Shown here piece after piece: positions 1,205 through 31,964 of a stretch of 37,473 nucleotides of DNA. Made by a program: the position numbers and the translations under genes. The first letter of the stretch is position 1. Each line of letters opens with the position of its first letter. The stretch covers positions 1 through 37,473 of the forward strand of contig SZXX01000019.1 in assembly GCA_005843825.1 (NCBI GenBank). Reading direction: 5' to 3'. Source of the DNA: Chlorobium sp. GTDB taxonomy: Bacteria; Bacteroidota; Chlorobiia; Chlorobiales; Chlorobiaceae. The notes under the pieces are model-generated. The model was not told the origin of the DNA, ran no database searches, and saw only the letters and a list, made by a program, of their open reading frames with translations.

Positions 1205-2380
1205 TCACACCCTCTTCAAAGCCTCAACCAGCCATTCAAACCCAATCTTCTCCTGCTCCAGCCGTATTTGAGAGCCCAAATCATTTAGACGCAACTGATC
1301 ATAAAACGCGCTCTCTTCAGCCGTCAGCCGCGTGAGGATGCCAGTTTCGGGAGATGGTTCAAAGCCCCAGAGCACTTGATGTTCTATCAGCGTTTGTTGA
1401 TCCATCAGAAAAGAGGCCGTATGGGGAAAGAATCCCCGAAGCTGGTTGAGGATGGCGAATCCATGGGTATCAATGTCTCCCCAGTAATGGATGTTCCGTT
1501 CACCCAGCCAGTCAACTCCTCTGAAATTCTCAAAACCATAGCCGGCTCCGAAAATTACCATAGCGTCGGGAACCTGGGGAAAGGCAAGAAAGTTGATTTC
1601 GTTTTCGGTGATGAAAACCTTGGTAACCGCTATCTCCAGTTTTGCAAAAGTTGCCTGTGTCACCGTGATATCCTGGTCGGTTTCCGTCTGCAACTGCGCC
1701 AGTTTCGGGTCAAGGATTCGGAATCGCACCCGCAGGGGTTTATCCCGAAAACCATAACGGCGGCAGAACCCTCCAGCTCCTGTGGCTGTTGTATCGATCT
1801 TCTCCGGTGAAAGGACGAGATCAAAAAGCTCCCCGAGCACACCTCGTTGTCCTTCAATAAACTTGCTGTGTATCCCCGGCAGGTCGATCTGTCGGAGATA
1901 TATGCCAGGCCGGGGATGCTTCCGCAGCCATGCGACAAGTTCCAACAAGCGGGGCCACTGCTCAGCCAGCTCCAGGGCGCGCAGAGGTCGTTTTACCAGC
2001 CATGAGAGCAGTTCAGGTTGATGGTCGCGGGTCAGTGCGACGAGGGCTGCAAACTGTTCTGCAGCAAGTCGTTTGCCAATAAGCCCAAGAGCATCATCGA
2101 GTGAGTCGATCCAGATTTCCGCCGGAATTTCATTTGCTCCCAGAATGCGATGATTGATGCTGCGCCATACAATCCGATAATGTTTTGCTGGGCCCGACAG
2201 CCGGGCAATCCAGTCTCGCACCTCTGAAAATGAGTCGCTTAACTGCCGGGAGTCCGGCCCTTTCAGCGTCAAACGCCGGGGGAATATCTCTTCACCGCCA
2301 GTCAGGGTGGAGAGGAGTAAGCCCCGATCCCAAAGTTTTTGAACCTGAGCCTTGAGTTCTGCAGGAGTTGTCCAGTTCAT
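1205..2380 (-). CDS. jetD: Wadjet system nuclease subunit JetD (DUF3322-DUF2220)
   Basis: The 391-residue protein has the DUF3322 N-terminal half (about 1-190) and a DUF2220 Toprim-type C-terminal half (about 200-391). The metal-binding acidic residues of the Toprim fold are visible: a glutamate in ITENEINF (E259 or E261) and the GDIDTHG motif (D302, D304). JetD is the topoisomerase VI/Spo11-like nuclease that cuts small circular DNA such as plasmids after the JetABC motor has extruded it. It is the last gene of the operon; its ATG overlaps the jetC stop by 4 nt. Its final about 180 bp is duplicated near 165-352. The gene is full length and no inactivating change is seen. Confidence 0.92.
1221..1383 (-). 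repeat. Direct repeat copy B (3' end of intact jetD)
   Basis: This is the partner of 190-352 in the same orientation and forms the coding end of the intact jetD gene. The 868 bp between the copies carry the toxin-antitoxin genes, their promoter and about 130 bp on the jetD side. Confidence 0.85.
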
Positions 2381-5300
2381 TCAAGCGCCTTCTCTTTCTC
2401 GGCGCGATACTCCTCGATGGTGAGGTTGCGCAACACCGAGCAGCGCCCCTCCTGATTGTGAACAAACCCGACGCTGGAGACATACGGCTCTATGATATGG
2501 ATTTTCTGCAATGGTGTAACAATCAGCAGTTGCAGGTTGAGCTGGGCAAAGAGTTGCAGGCCGTACTGGGCCGATTCATCAGAACCTCGTCCAAAGGCCT
2601 CGTCGATGACCACAAAGCGGAACGACCGGGAGCGAACCGCGCCCCACTCCAGACCGAACTGATAGGCCAGGCTGGCGGCAAGCACAGTATAGGCGAGCTT
2701 CTCCTTCTGTCCTCCGGATTTCCCCCCCGAATCAGCGTAGTGTTCATGTTCACTGTCGTCTTCCCGCCACCGTTCGCTGGCTGCAAAGACAAACCAGTTG
2801 CGCACATCAGTGACTTTTGCTGTCCAGCGCCGATCCAGGTCAGCATGCTCATTTCGGCCACGGAATCGATCGATGATTCGCCGCACCTGGAGAAATTTTG
2901 CTTCGGAATACTGCGCGTCATCCGAACCGGTCAAACTCCCTTCAGTGCAGGCACGAAGCTCTGACTGAAAGTCACGAATGTCAGCATCGAGGTTTATTTG
3001 TACTTCGAGGGTGATGTATCGGCCGGCATTGAAGTCGATTTGCGTAAGTGATTCATTGAGTCGGGTAATGCGTTCCTTTATAGTCTCCCGCTCGCGAGCC
3101 AGTTGTGATTGAAAGTTGGCAACCTCACGGATGGTATTCTCGTTGAGCAGCTCTTTGAACCGTCCCTCAAAGCGAGGCAGATCATCTGCATGGAGTTGAT
3201 CAAACATCGAACGATATTCCGGTCCGGTAGCAATGTTGACATCCACCTCACGAGTTTCCAGTTTCCACTCTTCCTTGTATTCGGTCATCGCCCTGATAAT
3301 CTTTTCGCTCAGTCGGGAGAGCTTCCTGTCCTCGGTGTCGATCTTTGTCTGCAGCCAGTCACGCATCTCACGCTCGCGATTGTCGCACGTTTCAATCGTC
3401 AGCGTCTGTTCGCCGAGAGCTTGCACACGCATGGCTTCAAGCATGGCGAAACGCGCGGCATGTTCTGGCCCGGCTTCTGACAGCAGTGTATGCGTCTGCG
3501 CCTGCAACTCCATGATGACAGTGATCTTCTGCTCAATCTTTGAGCGTTTATCCTTCCTTTCGTCAAGTTTCCGCTCGGTTTCCTGCAGTTCCTCTTCCAG
3601 CTCGGCAAGTTGGGCGGTCAGGGTTTGCAGAAGGTTTGAGGTTGCCTCAAGATCACGCTTTTCCTTTTCCAGCCTGGCGATGGCAACTGCGAGAGGCTGC
3701 CAGTCGAGATCGCGGAAATCCGGATATTCGTCAAGTTTGGAGAGTATCGTCAGGCGTTCTTTGAGTGTCGTTTGCTCTTGCTGCAGTCTGCTCATGCGGC
3801 CCGCGAGTTCGGCAAGTTCTTTTTTCTGAAGTTTGGCCTTCTCTTCCAGTGCAGCGATTTTCTGGGCATTGCTCCATCCAAGCACGTAGCGGCTTCGGTC
3901 GTCAATCCGGTGGCGGTCATCCTTTTCGTGGCGTTCACCCGGCGACTTGATCTGACCGGCCAGGGTTATGGCTTTTTTCTCCCTACGGAACTCTTCCTGG
4001 CTCATGCAGCAAACCAGATCGAAACGCCAGGCAACTTCATGTTCCAGCCAGTCAAAGAAAGGTGAATCGGCTTTTATTGCGAGTTTGTGCGCCAGCGAAT
4101 CCGGATGGTCTGGCATCTGTTCACTGCGAGAGCGCTGACGTACCCGAAAATAGACCAGACGACCTTTCAGATTTGTATGCTCCACCCATTCCGCCACCTT
4201 CAGGTAGTGATGGTCAGGCACCAGCAGCGAAAGACCGAAGTTGCGGAGCACTCGTTCAATGGCTCCTTCCCAGACCTGATCTTCCTCACGAACCTGAAGC
4301 AGCTCACCGGCAAACGGCATCTCAGCTTCCGCGATATTCAGGGCCTGACAGAGCGAGCGCCGCATTGCAACCTGTTTTTCGTCTATATTGCTCAGGCGGG
4401 CTTTCAAACCCTTGATCTCGGTTGTCAGTTGTTCATGCTCATAGCGTCTCTGGGTAAAGAGAACTCCCGCCTCATTGAGATCGTTTTGAACTCTTGCTTC
4501 AGCTTCAGCAGTGGCTTCGTGCATGGCTGAGTGGCCGCTGCTCTGAAGATGAAACTCCTCAGCGTTCGTCGCAGGATGCTCACCAAGCAAACGTGCAAGT
4601 TCCCCATATCGGGTCGCTTTCTGATTGCGCCGTTCAAGATCATCCTGTTTCTGCCGAATCTCTGCATCAATAATCTCGATACGGTCACCGCCGTTTTCGG
4701 CGATGGTTCGGCGAAGCTCACGATCACGTCCCTGTTGGGTGCGGCGATCTTCTTCCAGTCGTTCGATGGTGATATGGTGACGGCTCAACTCTTCATACAG
4801 CGAGGAAAGACGTTTTTCCAGTAATCCCAGCTTGAGCGATGCAAACCAGGGACGAAGGGAATCGCGAGAGGCCCGCAACGCTTCCGCTGTTCGGGCCATA
4901 GTCTGGTGGTTTTCGCAATCAGCCACCAGAGGCCCCAGCATCTCTATTTGCCGCTTTGCTTTGAGGACGGCTTCGTGAGCCCGGTTGAGATCTTCGAAAT
5001 GCTGGATAAGGGCGGCAATACGTGGCTCGACAGTAAATGGTTCCAGCATGTGTAGACGCACGAAATCGGTCAGGTTTCCTACCGACTTGAGCGATACGGT
5101 TTGATGAAACAGATCCAGTGCCTGCTCATTTTCTATGCCGAAGCGCCGTCGGAACCAAGCACCGTAAGGTGGAAAGCTTTCGAACAACTCCACTCCCGAC
5201 CCGCGCAGGCGCTTGCGCAGAGTCCCGATTTCAGTGCCAAATGCAGAAAAATCGGCAGCGATGGAGAGATCGCCTTCATAAGCAGCATAAAAACGGGCTG

Positions 5301-15280: not shown

Positions 15281-16549
15281 ATGGATTTTTTTTCCATTCT
15301 CTACTACCGGTTTAAAAAAGTTTGGAAATCGATTCGTCTTTACCTGGTTATTGCAGGGCCGGGCCTCGTCGTGATGATTGCAGACAATGACGCTGGAGGT
15401 ATTACCACCTACGCAGCTACAGGAGCCAAATACGGTTATCACCTGATATGGTTTCTCCTTCTTCTTATTCCCGTGGCATATTACGTTCAGGAAATGACGG
15501 TCCGGCTTGGTGCGGTTACCAAACGAGGGCATGCTGAGGCTATTTTTGAGAGTTTCGGTGCATTCTGGGGATGGTTCTCGCTTATTGACCTTATGTTTGT
15601 GGACTGGCTGACGCTGGTCACTGAATTTGTCGGCATGACCGCTGCGTTAAGTATTTTTGGTGTTCCCGCCTGGTTGACCGTTATTCTGGTCGTCCTGCTC
15701 ATGAGTATGATTGTTCTGAATGGCCGATACTGGACATGGGAAAAGATTGCCTTGGGGTTTTGTTTGCTGAACCTTATTTACATCCCGGCAGCATTCATGG
15801 TTAACCCTTCAATATCAAGCATTTTAGGTCAGGGATTGATTCCCAATCTTCCCGGCGGCTTCAATAATGAGCTGTTTTTTTTGCTTATGGCTAATATCGG
15901 CACCACCATTGCACCGTGGATGCTGTTTTTTCAGCAGAGCTCAGTTGTCGATAAAGGCCTGCAGGAAAAAGATATCAAAATGGGCAAACTTGATACCTTT
16001 ATCGGTTCAATCATCACCGTTGCTGTTGCGATATTCATCGTGATTGTAACCGGAACACTCCTGAATGGTGCACCAATCGATGATGCCGCCACCGCGGCCA
16101 GAATGTTGATGAAGACCAATCATTATATTGGTGCGCTCATGGCAATTGGATTGTTTGATGCCGGTCTCCTGGGGGCAATCTGTATTTCACTTGCAAGCTC
16201 GTGGGCGTTTGGAGAAATTTTCGGATGGGCGCACTCGCTTAACACCAAGGTCAAGGAAGCCCCCTGGTTCTATATTTCTTTTTTTATAACTCTGGCTACT
16301 GCCGGTGTCGTTCCTCTGATTCCTGGCGCTCCGCTTGTGCTCATAACGCTTTTTGTTCAGGTTGTAGCGGTGACTCTCTTGCCTGCAGCACTGGTCTTTT
16401 TGATTTTGCTGCTCAACGATAAAAAGACAATGGGGGAGTATGCCAATACCCCGTTGCAGAATATTGTCAGTACCTTGATCGTTGTCATGATTATAATACT
16501 GTCCACGTTATATGGCATAAGTGCGCTTTTCCCTAATCTTTTCAAGTAA
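15281..16549 (+). CDS. Nramp-family divalent metal transporter with altered metal-site motifs
   Basis: The 422-residue protein has about 11 membrane spans with the Nramp/LeuT-type layout. Aligning span 1 by its GPGLV and KYGYHLIW landmarks puts DAGG (37-40) where Mn/Fe Nramps have DPGN, and span 6 has APW (211-213) where they have MPH. The span-1 aspartate is kept while the span-6 methionine that disfavours Mg2+ and Ca2+ is lost. Such changes are known in Nramp-related magnesium transporters, so Mg2+ (or Mn2+) uptake is the likeliest job. The two following genes, a small membrane protein and an MgtE_N-CBS protein, run in the same direction with gaps of 16 and 13 bp and support a magnesium-linked role. 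Confidence 0.85.
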   Translation: MDFFSILYYRFKKVWKSIRLYLVIAGPGLVVMIADNDAGGITTYAATGAKYGYHLIWFLLLLIPVAYYVQEMTVRLGAVTKRGHAEAIFESFGAFWGWFSLIDLMFVDWLTLVTEFVGMTAALSIFGVPAWLTVILVVLLMSMIVLNGRYWTWEKIALGFCLLNLIYIPAAFMVNPSISSILGQGLIPNLPGGFNNELFFLLMANIGTTIAPWMLFFQQSSVVDKGLQEKDIKMGKLDTFIGSIITVAVAIFIVIVTGTLLNGAPIDDAATAARMLMKTNHYIGALMAIGLFDAGLLGAICISLASSWAFGEIFGWAHSLNTKVKEAPWFYISFFITLATAGVVPLIPGAPLVLITLFVQVVAVTLLPAALVFLILLLNDKKTMGEYANTPLQNIVSTLIVVMIIILSTLYGISALFPNLFK

Positions 16550-16565
16550 TTGAGGCTGTCAGATT

Positions 16566-16733
16566 ATGAGGATGCTCAAACAGTTTATCAGAAAGATCCG
16601 CGAGATCAACCAGCGCTATGCCAAACCTAAAATTGAAATGTCAAAAGGTGTCAGTTTTTCCCTGGCGGTTCTTCGGGTCTACCTCTTTGTGCTTGTGCTT
16701 TTGATGATCTACAAATTCATCACGGTTTTATAA
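16566..16733 (+). CDS. Single-span small membrane protein (55 residues) between transporter and MgtE_N-CBS genes
   Basis: The frame ATG 16566 to TAA 16731-16733 encodes a 55-residue protein. A very basic N-terminal half (several K/R in residues 5-27) is followed by one hydrophobic span at about 31-50 (VLRVYLFVLVLLMIYKF), giving a likely cytoplasmic N-terminus by the positive-inside rule. GAGG lies 10 nt upstream. It fills the gap between the Nramp-like gene (16 bp away) and the MgtE_N-CBS gene (13 bp away) exactly, which argues for a real third operon member. I do not know a named family. A small accessory or regulatory subunit of the transporter is a reasonable inference. Confidence 0.7.
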   Translation: MRMLKQFIRKIREINQRYAKPKIEMSKGVSFSLAVLRVYLFVLVLLMIYKFITVL

Positions 16734-16746
16734 AACCCCAACACCA

Positions 16747-17997
16747 ATGGTTACAGTTCTTGATCGTGACTTTTACCTGAGCGAGATTGTCGGCCGCCGA
16801 ATCTATTTGAAGACACGTTCAATCGGCAAGCTTAAAGATCTCGTTATACAGGAGAACGCTGGTAAAGTCCCCGAAGTTACCCACCTGCTGGTTCACCAGC
16901 CATACGGTGACCCTCGCCTTTTGATTCCATGGGATAAAATCACCCTGATTTCCAACACTGAAATTGTTTCAGAAATCACCAGCACTGACGGGTACGAACT
17001 CAATCCCCTCGACAACTATATTTTTCTGAAAGACTACATTCTTGACAAGAAGATACTTGATATGGATGGCCATGAGGTTGAAGTGGTCTATGATGTCAAG
17101 CTTCTGTTTCAGAACGACCGGCTTTTTGTCACCGATGTAGATTTCAACCGTTTTCGTATTCTCCGGCGAATGGGGTTTAAAAAGCTTGCAAATTACCTTG
17201 CTAAATACAAAGAGGGATCCAGTATCTCCTGGCTTTATGTGCAGCCTCTGCCCGACACTATCGGCAGCTTTGAAGGCAATGTCAAGCTCAATGTACTTAA
17301 GGAAAATATCAACGATATCCACCCGGTCGATCTGGCTGATATTCTCGAGGAGCTTGACGGCAGTCAGCGTATGGCAGTATTCAATCAAATTGAACCGGAA
17401 CTGGCATCAGATACCCTCGAAGAGGTTGAGCCGAGAGTGCAGCGTGAGCTTATCCGCTCAATGGAAAAAGAGCGGGCAGCCGAATTGATTAACGAAATGA
17501 GTCCGGCTCAGGTTGCTGATATTCTTTCCGTGCTGCCGGCTTCGGAAGCCGATGAAATTATTGAGTTTGTTGACAGTGAAAACAAACAGAGAGTGCAGCA
17601 GATTATTGATCAGAACGATGAAAACATCATGCTCTACTCAACGCAGCAGGTTATCAAACGGCCGTATGAGACCATAGTCCGGGATGTCATTAACAATTAT
17701 CGTGACGTTGCCGGTGACATGGATGTCATTATGTATGTCTATGTTGTCAATGAAGAGAATATACTTCAGGGAGTTGTTGATTTACGTGAGCTGATTGCCG
17801 CTGAGCCGGAGCAGACACTTGGGGAAATTATGACCGATAACCTCATCACCCTCAGTCCTGATGAAACTCTGCAGGATGCGGTTGACATGTTTTCCCGATA
17901 CTCCTTCCGTGCCGTACCGATCACCGATGAGAGTGATCACTTGCTTGGTGTTGTTTCTTTCCACGATATTAAGGGTGTTAAGCCTCGATTGGATTAA
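16747..17997 (+). CDS. Soluble MgtE N-domain / CBS-pair protein
   Basis: The 416-residue protein has an N-terminal PRC-barrel-like part (about 1-75), a linker region to about 175, an MgtE N-type superhelical domain (about 185-290, with HPVDLADILEEL and MSPAQVADILSVLP) and a tandem CBS pair (about 300-412, ending RAVPITDESDHLLGVVSFHDI). The MgtE membrane channel domain is missing altogether. In MgtE the N and CBS domains sense cytoplasmic Mg2+ and close the pore, so here a free-standing sensor may gate or regulate the Nramp-like transporter encoded upstream. Distance and orientation suggest one operon. The start at 16747 leaves no overlap with the small gene before it. Confidence 0.85.
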   Translation: MVTVLDRDFYLSEIVGRRIYLKTRSIGKLKDLVIQENAGKVPEVTHLLVHQPYGDPRLLIPWDKITLISNTEIVSEITSTDGYELNPLDNYIFLKDYILDKKILDMDGHEVEVVYDVKLLFQNDRLFVTDVDFNRFRILRRMGFKKLANYLAKYKEGSSISWLYVQPLPDTIGSFEGNVKLNVLKENINDIHPVDLADILEELDGSQRMAVFNQIEPELASDTLEEVEPRVQRELIRSMEKERAAELINEMSPAQVADILSVLPASEADEIIEFVDSENKQRVQQIIDQNDENIMLYSTQQVIKRPYETIVRDVINNYRDVAGDMDVIMYVYVVNEENILQGVVDLRELIAAEPEQTLGEIMTDNLITLSPDETLQDAVDMFSRYSFRAVPITDESDHLLGVVSFHDIKGVKPRLD

Positions 17998-31855: not shown

Positions 31856-31962
31856 CTATCATCCAGAAAGGTGGAGGGACTGGCCCTGAGAAGCCTTGGC
31901 AACCGTCATTGCACAATGAGTGGTGCCAATTCCATCCCGGAGTAAGAACCGGGAATGATGAT

Positions 31963-31964
<2 letters not shown>
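31856..31964 (+). ncRNA. SAM-I riboswitch (S-box) of the metY-metX operon
   Basis: The conserved core AGGTGGAGGGACTGGCCC followed by TTGGCAACC is present at 31869-31904. P1 can form from 31856-31863 and 31957-31964; a P3 hairpin CATTG-CA-CAATG and a P4 hairpin CCCGG...CCGGG are visible. Binding of SAM should stabilise P1 and turn the downstream methionine genes off. Confidence 0.92.

Follow-up and report, generated by a model that had tools for sequence, protein, structure and literature searches.

Results

The window, the whole 37,473-nucleotide stretch of Chlorobium sp. DNA that was analyzed (contig SZXX01000019.1), contains three closely spaced genes:

15281 to 16549, + strand: nrmT, NRMT branch of SLC11, 422 aa (Pfam Nramp, PDB 7qia, AF2 model, tree)
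16566 to 16733, + strand: predicted small single-span membrane protein, 55 aa (conservation beside nrmT, genome censuses)
16747 to 17997, + strand: free MgtE_N-CBS protein, 416 aa (Pfam, AF2 fold match, Mg-site residues)

The open reading frames confirm the layout given in a preliminary description of the locus, with all three genes on the same strand and gaps of 16 and 13 bp between them. Scanning the window for promoters and terminators gave signals at or near chance, there was no match to the M-box (RF00380) in the window, and a plasmid search for the operon gave no match. Elsewhere in the window, a SAM riboswitch lies at 31856-31964 on the + strand (RF00162, 85.5 bits).

The product of 15281-16549 matches Pfam Nramp (E 8e-77), and the closest solved structure in a PDB sequence search is EleNRMT (7qia, E 1.2e-67), the best classical Nramp reaching E 2.4e-16. 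The motif changes reported earlier, DPGN to DAGG and MPH to APW (in IGTTIAPW), are indeed present in the sequence, and the stretches NDAGGI and IGTTIAPWM are identical between the window NrmT and EleNRMT. At the ion site, DxxG in span 1 and TxxA in span 6 replace DxxN and A/CxxM. The AF2 model (pLDDT 91.2) has EleNRMT as its top fold match (TM 0.83/0.88), and 11 spans are predicted from the full-length alignment to the 11-span EleNRMT and from this model, which has the same fold. Judged by sequence and predicted fold, the transporter is an NrmT/NRMT protein, closer to EleNRMT than to the classical Nramps. This closeness and the ion-site motifs bear out the initial proposal that the protein is a Mg2+-type relative of Nramp, and Mg2+ is its likely substrate.

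In the product of the third gene, Pfam places a PRC barrel at residues 8-70, MgtE_N at 191-288, and a CBS pair at about 295-410; a second barrel-like domain at about 95-170 is seen in the AF2 model only. The assignment of MgtE_N and CBS domains without a channel domain thus stands, and what the preliminary description overlooked is the N-terminal PRC barrel. The channel domain PF01769 is absent both from this protein and from the whole window genome, and the protein has no plug helix. Its AF2 model has a pLDDT of 86.8 and a pTM of 0.46, the latter leaving the placement of the domains unsure, and the cytosolic domain of MgtE is the closest fold to it (2yvy, E 2.5e-19). Three of the six MgtE ligand positions compared are acidic in the window protein, namely, E59 (as D), D95, and D247, and the positions of D91, D226, and D250 are non-acidic. 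Across the branch, acidic residues prevail at the positions of E59 and D247, and D91 is kept in none. In MgtE, D91, D226, and D250 are part of the sites that bridge to the plug helix (PMC5882242), and their loss is to be expected in a protein without plug or pore. The ligand pattern fits a freed sensor that may still close its own N-CBS contact.

In each of the 21 genus loci first examined (from 20 genomes; the named relatives are Chlorobiaceae), the small frame keeps one position, 12-19 bp 3' of nrmT and 13-26 bp 5' of mgtE_N, and its conservation between these two genes had been put forward as a test in the preliminary description. Its median dN/dS at these loci is 0.10, next to 0.03 and 0.04 for the flanking genes, ratios that are rough because dS is >1. 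By these values, the small protein is under purifying selection, and its constant position, its dN/dS, and its retention beyond the genus uphold the earlier view that the frame is a real gene. The protein has an N-terminal arm, KIREINxKYxxPxIxMS, followed by the span LRxYLxxLVxLxxYKF, in which LRxY is near-invariant (R37 and Y39 in the window protein). The N-side is the more positive one in 114 of 123 small proteins, a charge bias that suggests an orientation with the N-terminus inside. Neither Pfam nor NCBIfam gave a match at E 0.01 for 49 members, and a PDB profile search with the family was empty at E 1. In the literature searched, one limited collection, we found no mention of a small membrane protein beside NrmT and no small subunit for SLC11/NRAMP carriers. 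As far as these searches reach, the small protein represents a separate family that had not been described before.

To define its distribution, contigs were scanned with a broad NrmT alignment. Among the best 80 loci, three end at a contig edge and are unassessable, and the small-protein profile has one match per locus beside nrmT in all of the other 77. In the wider set of 137 loci, 123 have one match each, with none elsewhere in six frames. The 77 loci (64 bacterial and 13 archaeal) represent about 21 NCBI phyla, by labels that come from record titles, mostly of metagenome assemblies, and that may be wrong in single cases. The gene order of the window, nrmT-small-mgtE_N, is not unique to this strain, being found at 44 loci. 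The order nrmT-mgtE_N-small is found at 21 loci, and 10 loci, one of which lies on a truncated contig, were initially counted as having nrmT and the small gene without a close mgtE_N; a second profile or the reading of frames added L128 and L135.

Genome censuses gave a similarly strict pairing. The phylum census covered 394 genomes, and the 47 with the small protein are exactly those with NrmT of this branch (47/47), a count that overstates independence because most of these genomes are of one genus. The small gene accompanies 48 of the 49 nrmT copies, the 49th being a 228-residue fragment. Among 295 Nitrospirota genomes, 114 have NrmT. The small protein is present in 8/8 genomes with an NrmT of 71-73% identity, and a separate small gene lies beside nrmT in 0/106 genomes with only other NrmTs (33-42% identity); the sole match among those 106 is at chance level (E 1e-3) on a different contig, and three of them hold the small-protein motif fused to NrmT. 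At 30 Bacillota loci, the small gene lies beside all five NrmTs of 42-49% identity and beside none of the 25 less similar ones. Ten further genomes have exactly one small-protein copy each. Distances for nrmT correlate with those for either partner (r 0.56-0.86), and such correlations among the three proteins show co-inheritance only. Genome G003, from a relative, carries the complete nrmT-small-mgtE_N operon twice, on separate contigs (L053 and L054), with NrmTs of 95% and 92% identity to the window NrmT. Two Bacillota loci (L157 and L158) encode NrmT relatives of 40-41% identity, with the small gene and mgtE_N both absent from the 1.5-kb flanks, and these are a further type.

In a tree made by a quick method, with several long branches including the outgroup, the NrmTs that have the small protein cluster together, separate from the EleNRMT-like ones (SH-aLRT 99), with support dropping to 90 once the fused proteins are included. 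In the EleNRMT-like group, mgtE_N lies 5' of nrmT, and the small gene was not found there. The two orders that contain mgtE_N fall in two sister subgroups. The long-branched L045, without the small gene, joins the base of the small-bearing group in the first tree.

The fused proteins are 553-residue NrmT frames in three Nitrospirota genomes (L146, L147, and L148). Past the normal NrmT end, they continue with an extra hydrophobic span, a linker, and the C-terminus SSRVWMxxLRSYLxVAGGLLFFKLIxL, which matches the small-protein profile weakly (7.7-9.8 bits); the three frames are the top three non-family matches among 7465 frames. Their nearest neighbor in the tree is L134, with a separate small gene. 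The extra span would return the chain to the inside before the small-protein helix, in agreement with the N-in orientation from the charge bias. We take the 553-residue proteins as a natural fusion of the small protein to the NrmT C-terminus, and this fusion is the best hint that the two may be in physical contact. Long open frames in L059 and L076 that looked like NrmT-MgtE_N fusions were discarded because, by their coordinates, they do not share the reading frame of nrmT. The idea that the small protein supplies a missing twelfth span was rejected in its simplest case because the predicted N-in topology is the opposite orientation and because the fusion has an additional span before the small part.

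A short frame without a domain match could also be a leader peptide or a chance frame with no protein function. The dN/dS of 0.10, a motif kept over about 21 phyla, the differing gene orders, and the fusion to NrmT all speak against this, and for practical purposes it is refuted.

The N-terminal arm varies with the gene order. The KIREINxKYxxP (EIN) arm is present in 49/49 proteins of the order nrmT-small-mgtE_N, in 0/24 of the order nrmT-mgtE_N-small, and in 0/11 at loci without MgtE_N. This is suggestive of contact between the arm and the MgtE_N protein; the arm tracks one clade, so a single event may account for its association with gene order. At L125, L127, L130, L131, and L132, whose gene order lacks mgtE_N, the N-terminal arm of the small protein is of another, acidic kind (e.g., LDEDWEDFIKEEGLIDYNKIP), perhaps for another partner.

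The restriction of the cytosolic EIN arm to the order of the window, in which the small gene sits between nrmT and mgtE_N, would be explained if the small protein did nothing but tether the MgtE_N-CBS sensor to NrmT. We nevertheless find a pure tether improbable, as the small protein persists without a nearby MgtE_N gene, three genomes fuse it to NrmT alone with MgtE_N not nearby, and the order nrmT-mgtE_N-small lacks the arm. The same observations put in doubt the role of linker that was first proposed for the small protein: it stays with NrmT, and its fusions are to NrmT rather than to MgtE_N, and joining the two is thus not likely to be its core job. Its cytosolic arm could still contact MgtE_N.

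Several features of related loci link the operon to Mg2+. An M-box (RF00380) lies upstream of six small-bearing operons, at loci labelled Myxococcota or Bacillota (L062, L065, L128, L133, L154, and L155); in L062 and L065, about 500 bp separate it from nrmT, with no convincing gene between. At L055, from a relative, nrmT is preceded at a distance of approximately 1.1 kb by a gene for a magnesium-translocating P-type ATPase (1365-3986; TIGR01524, E 1e-230). CorA is present in the window genome, and the MgtE channel is lacking. CorA presence showed no clear pattern with the operon in the genus genomes, and complementary loss of MgtE was set aside as too weak (the operon is in 6/7 genus genomes without MgtE versus 14/30 with it). 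In genome G016 (98% complete), which has the operon at L151, a search for the MgtE channel and CorA found neither at its threshold, and this genome may rely on NrmT.

The NrmT group was named by Shin et al. in 2014, who reported Mg2+ uptake for two Clostridium members, both functional without an MgtE fragment (PMC4072509). Most members adjoin a gene for an MgtE N-terminal fragment, and feedback control was proposed (PMC4072509). The Acidobacterium capsulatum NrmT, which has the fragment, carried Mn2+, and co-expression of the fragment, the sole published test of this kind, had no effect (PMC4072509). In 2022, Ramanadane et al. solved the structure of EleNRMT, which has 11 spans and a DxxG-TxxA/T site; EleNRMT transports Mg2+ and Mn2+, does not carry Ca2+, and is not coupled to protons (PMC8806188). 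Mn2+ transport by EleNRMT, together with the rescue for Mn2+ and only in part for Mg2+ by one NrmT with an MgtE-like neighbor (PMC4072509), leaves some room for a Mn2+ or Fe2+ importer in an operon unrelated to Mg2+. We regard this as unlikely given the NRMT ion-site motifs without the methionine, the M-box riboswitches ahead of other operons in this branch, the Mg2+ P-type ATPase gene upstream of nrmT in L055, and a window genome that lacks the MgtE channel.

Discussion

In bacteria and archaea alike, the small protein recurs beside nrmT, with fusion to NrmT in some cases, and it is probably a component of the importer that had been overlooked. We favor with some confidence the explanation that one NrmT branch has it as an obligate subunit with a single span. 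The operon would then encode an NrmT-type Mg2+ importer and two accessory proteins. The small protein would lie in the membrane against NrmT with its N-terminus inside and, by analogy with single-span subunits elsewhere, may be needed for the folding, stability, or transport cycle of NrmT. Where the gene for the free MgtE_N-CBS protein comes directly next, the longer N-terminus with the KIREINxKY arm may dock the soluble sensor. Binding of Mg2+ between the N and CBS domains of the sensor would then slow uptake when Mg2+ is plentiful. What the analysis shows is the genes, their conservation and co-occurrence, the gene orders, the fused form, and the motif identity with NRMT; Mg2+ as substrate, the physical binding, the docking arm, and the gating are inferred, and co-occurrence alone is no proof of binding.

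Small peptides such as MgtR inhibit their targets or hand them to a protease. A negative regulator that inhibits NrmT or passes it to a protease would accordingly have precedents, since small single-span proteins in such roles exist for Mg2+ proteins (PMC6813294, PMC10925321), and the strict one-to-one pairing suits an inhibitor equally well as a subunit. However, the gene is always within the transporter's operon, the M-box-controlled operons would make both proteins at low Mg2+, and a natural fusion to NrmT would be odd for a degradation tag. A negative regulator is for these reasons an explanation to which we give little weight compared with an obligate subunit.

A more ambitious reading is that of a three-part, feedback-gated SLC11 carrier, in which the small protein is an obligate subunit and, in many lineages, its arm links the carrier with an MgtE sensor that has split off. 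We hold this only tentatively and think it more likely to be wrong than right in its entirety; full coupling of sensor, subunit, and carrier is possible but unproven. The pairing of nrmT with MgtE_N and the idea of feedback gating were published in 2014, so that this half of the preliminary description is not new. The new part of the locus is the 55-residue protein, and the transporter and its MgtE_N neighbor are a further example of a known pair.

The usual picture of an NRAMP-related Mg2+ importer is a carrier made of one protein. Should a large branch always have a second membrane subunit, tests of a transporter from that branch alone would miss a constant partner. A third component also gives a direct route to the question left open in 2014, the role of the MgtE-like fragment. 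Moreover, a small-protein family of bacteria and archaea is defined for which annotation has no model.

The window transporter shares with the published NrmT/NRMT proteins (Clostridium Ca_c0685 and Ca_c3329; EleNRMT, 7qia) the fold, the 11 spans, the DxxG-TxxA site, the MgtE_N-CBS operon neighbor, and, in some relatives, the M-box, but a small membrane protein is not mentioned for those (PMC4072509, PMC8806188). It differs from the EleNRMT-like branch in belonging to the other branch, with nrmT first, whereas the EleNRMT-like loci studied here have mgtE_N first; EleNRMT works alone as a purified protein, and its branch is without the small gene. With the cytosolic N-CBS part of MgtE (2yvy, 2zy9), the third protein shares MgtE_N, the CBS pair, and the acidic ligands E59 (D), D95, and D247, but it has no plug helix or channel, has lost D91, D226, and D250, and has an N-terminal PRC barrel. 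Small single-span partners of transporters are represented by AcrZ (with AcrB), KdpF, and MgtS. The small protein of the window matches no family or solved chain, in contrast to these, and its candidate partner is an SLC11/NRAMP carrier. It resembles AcrZ (PMC7267776), KdpF, and MgtS in its size, its predicted single span, and its being encoded or acting with one transporter.
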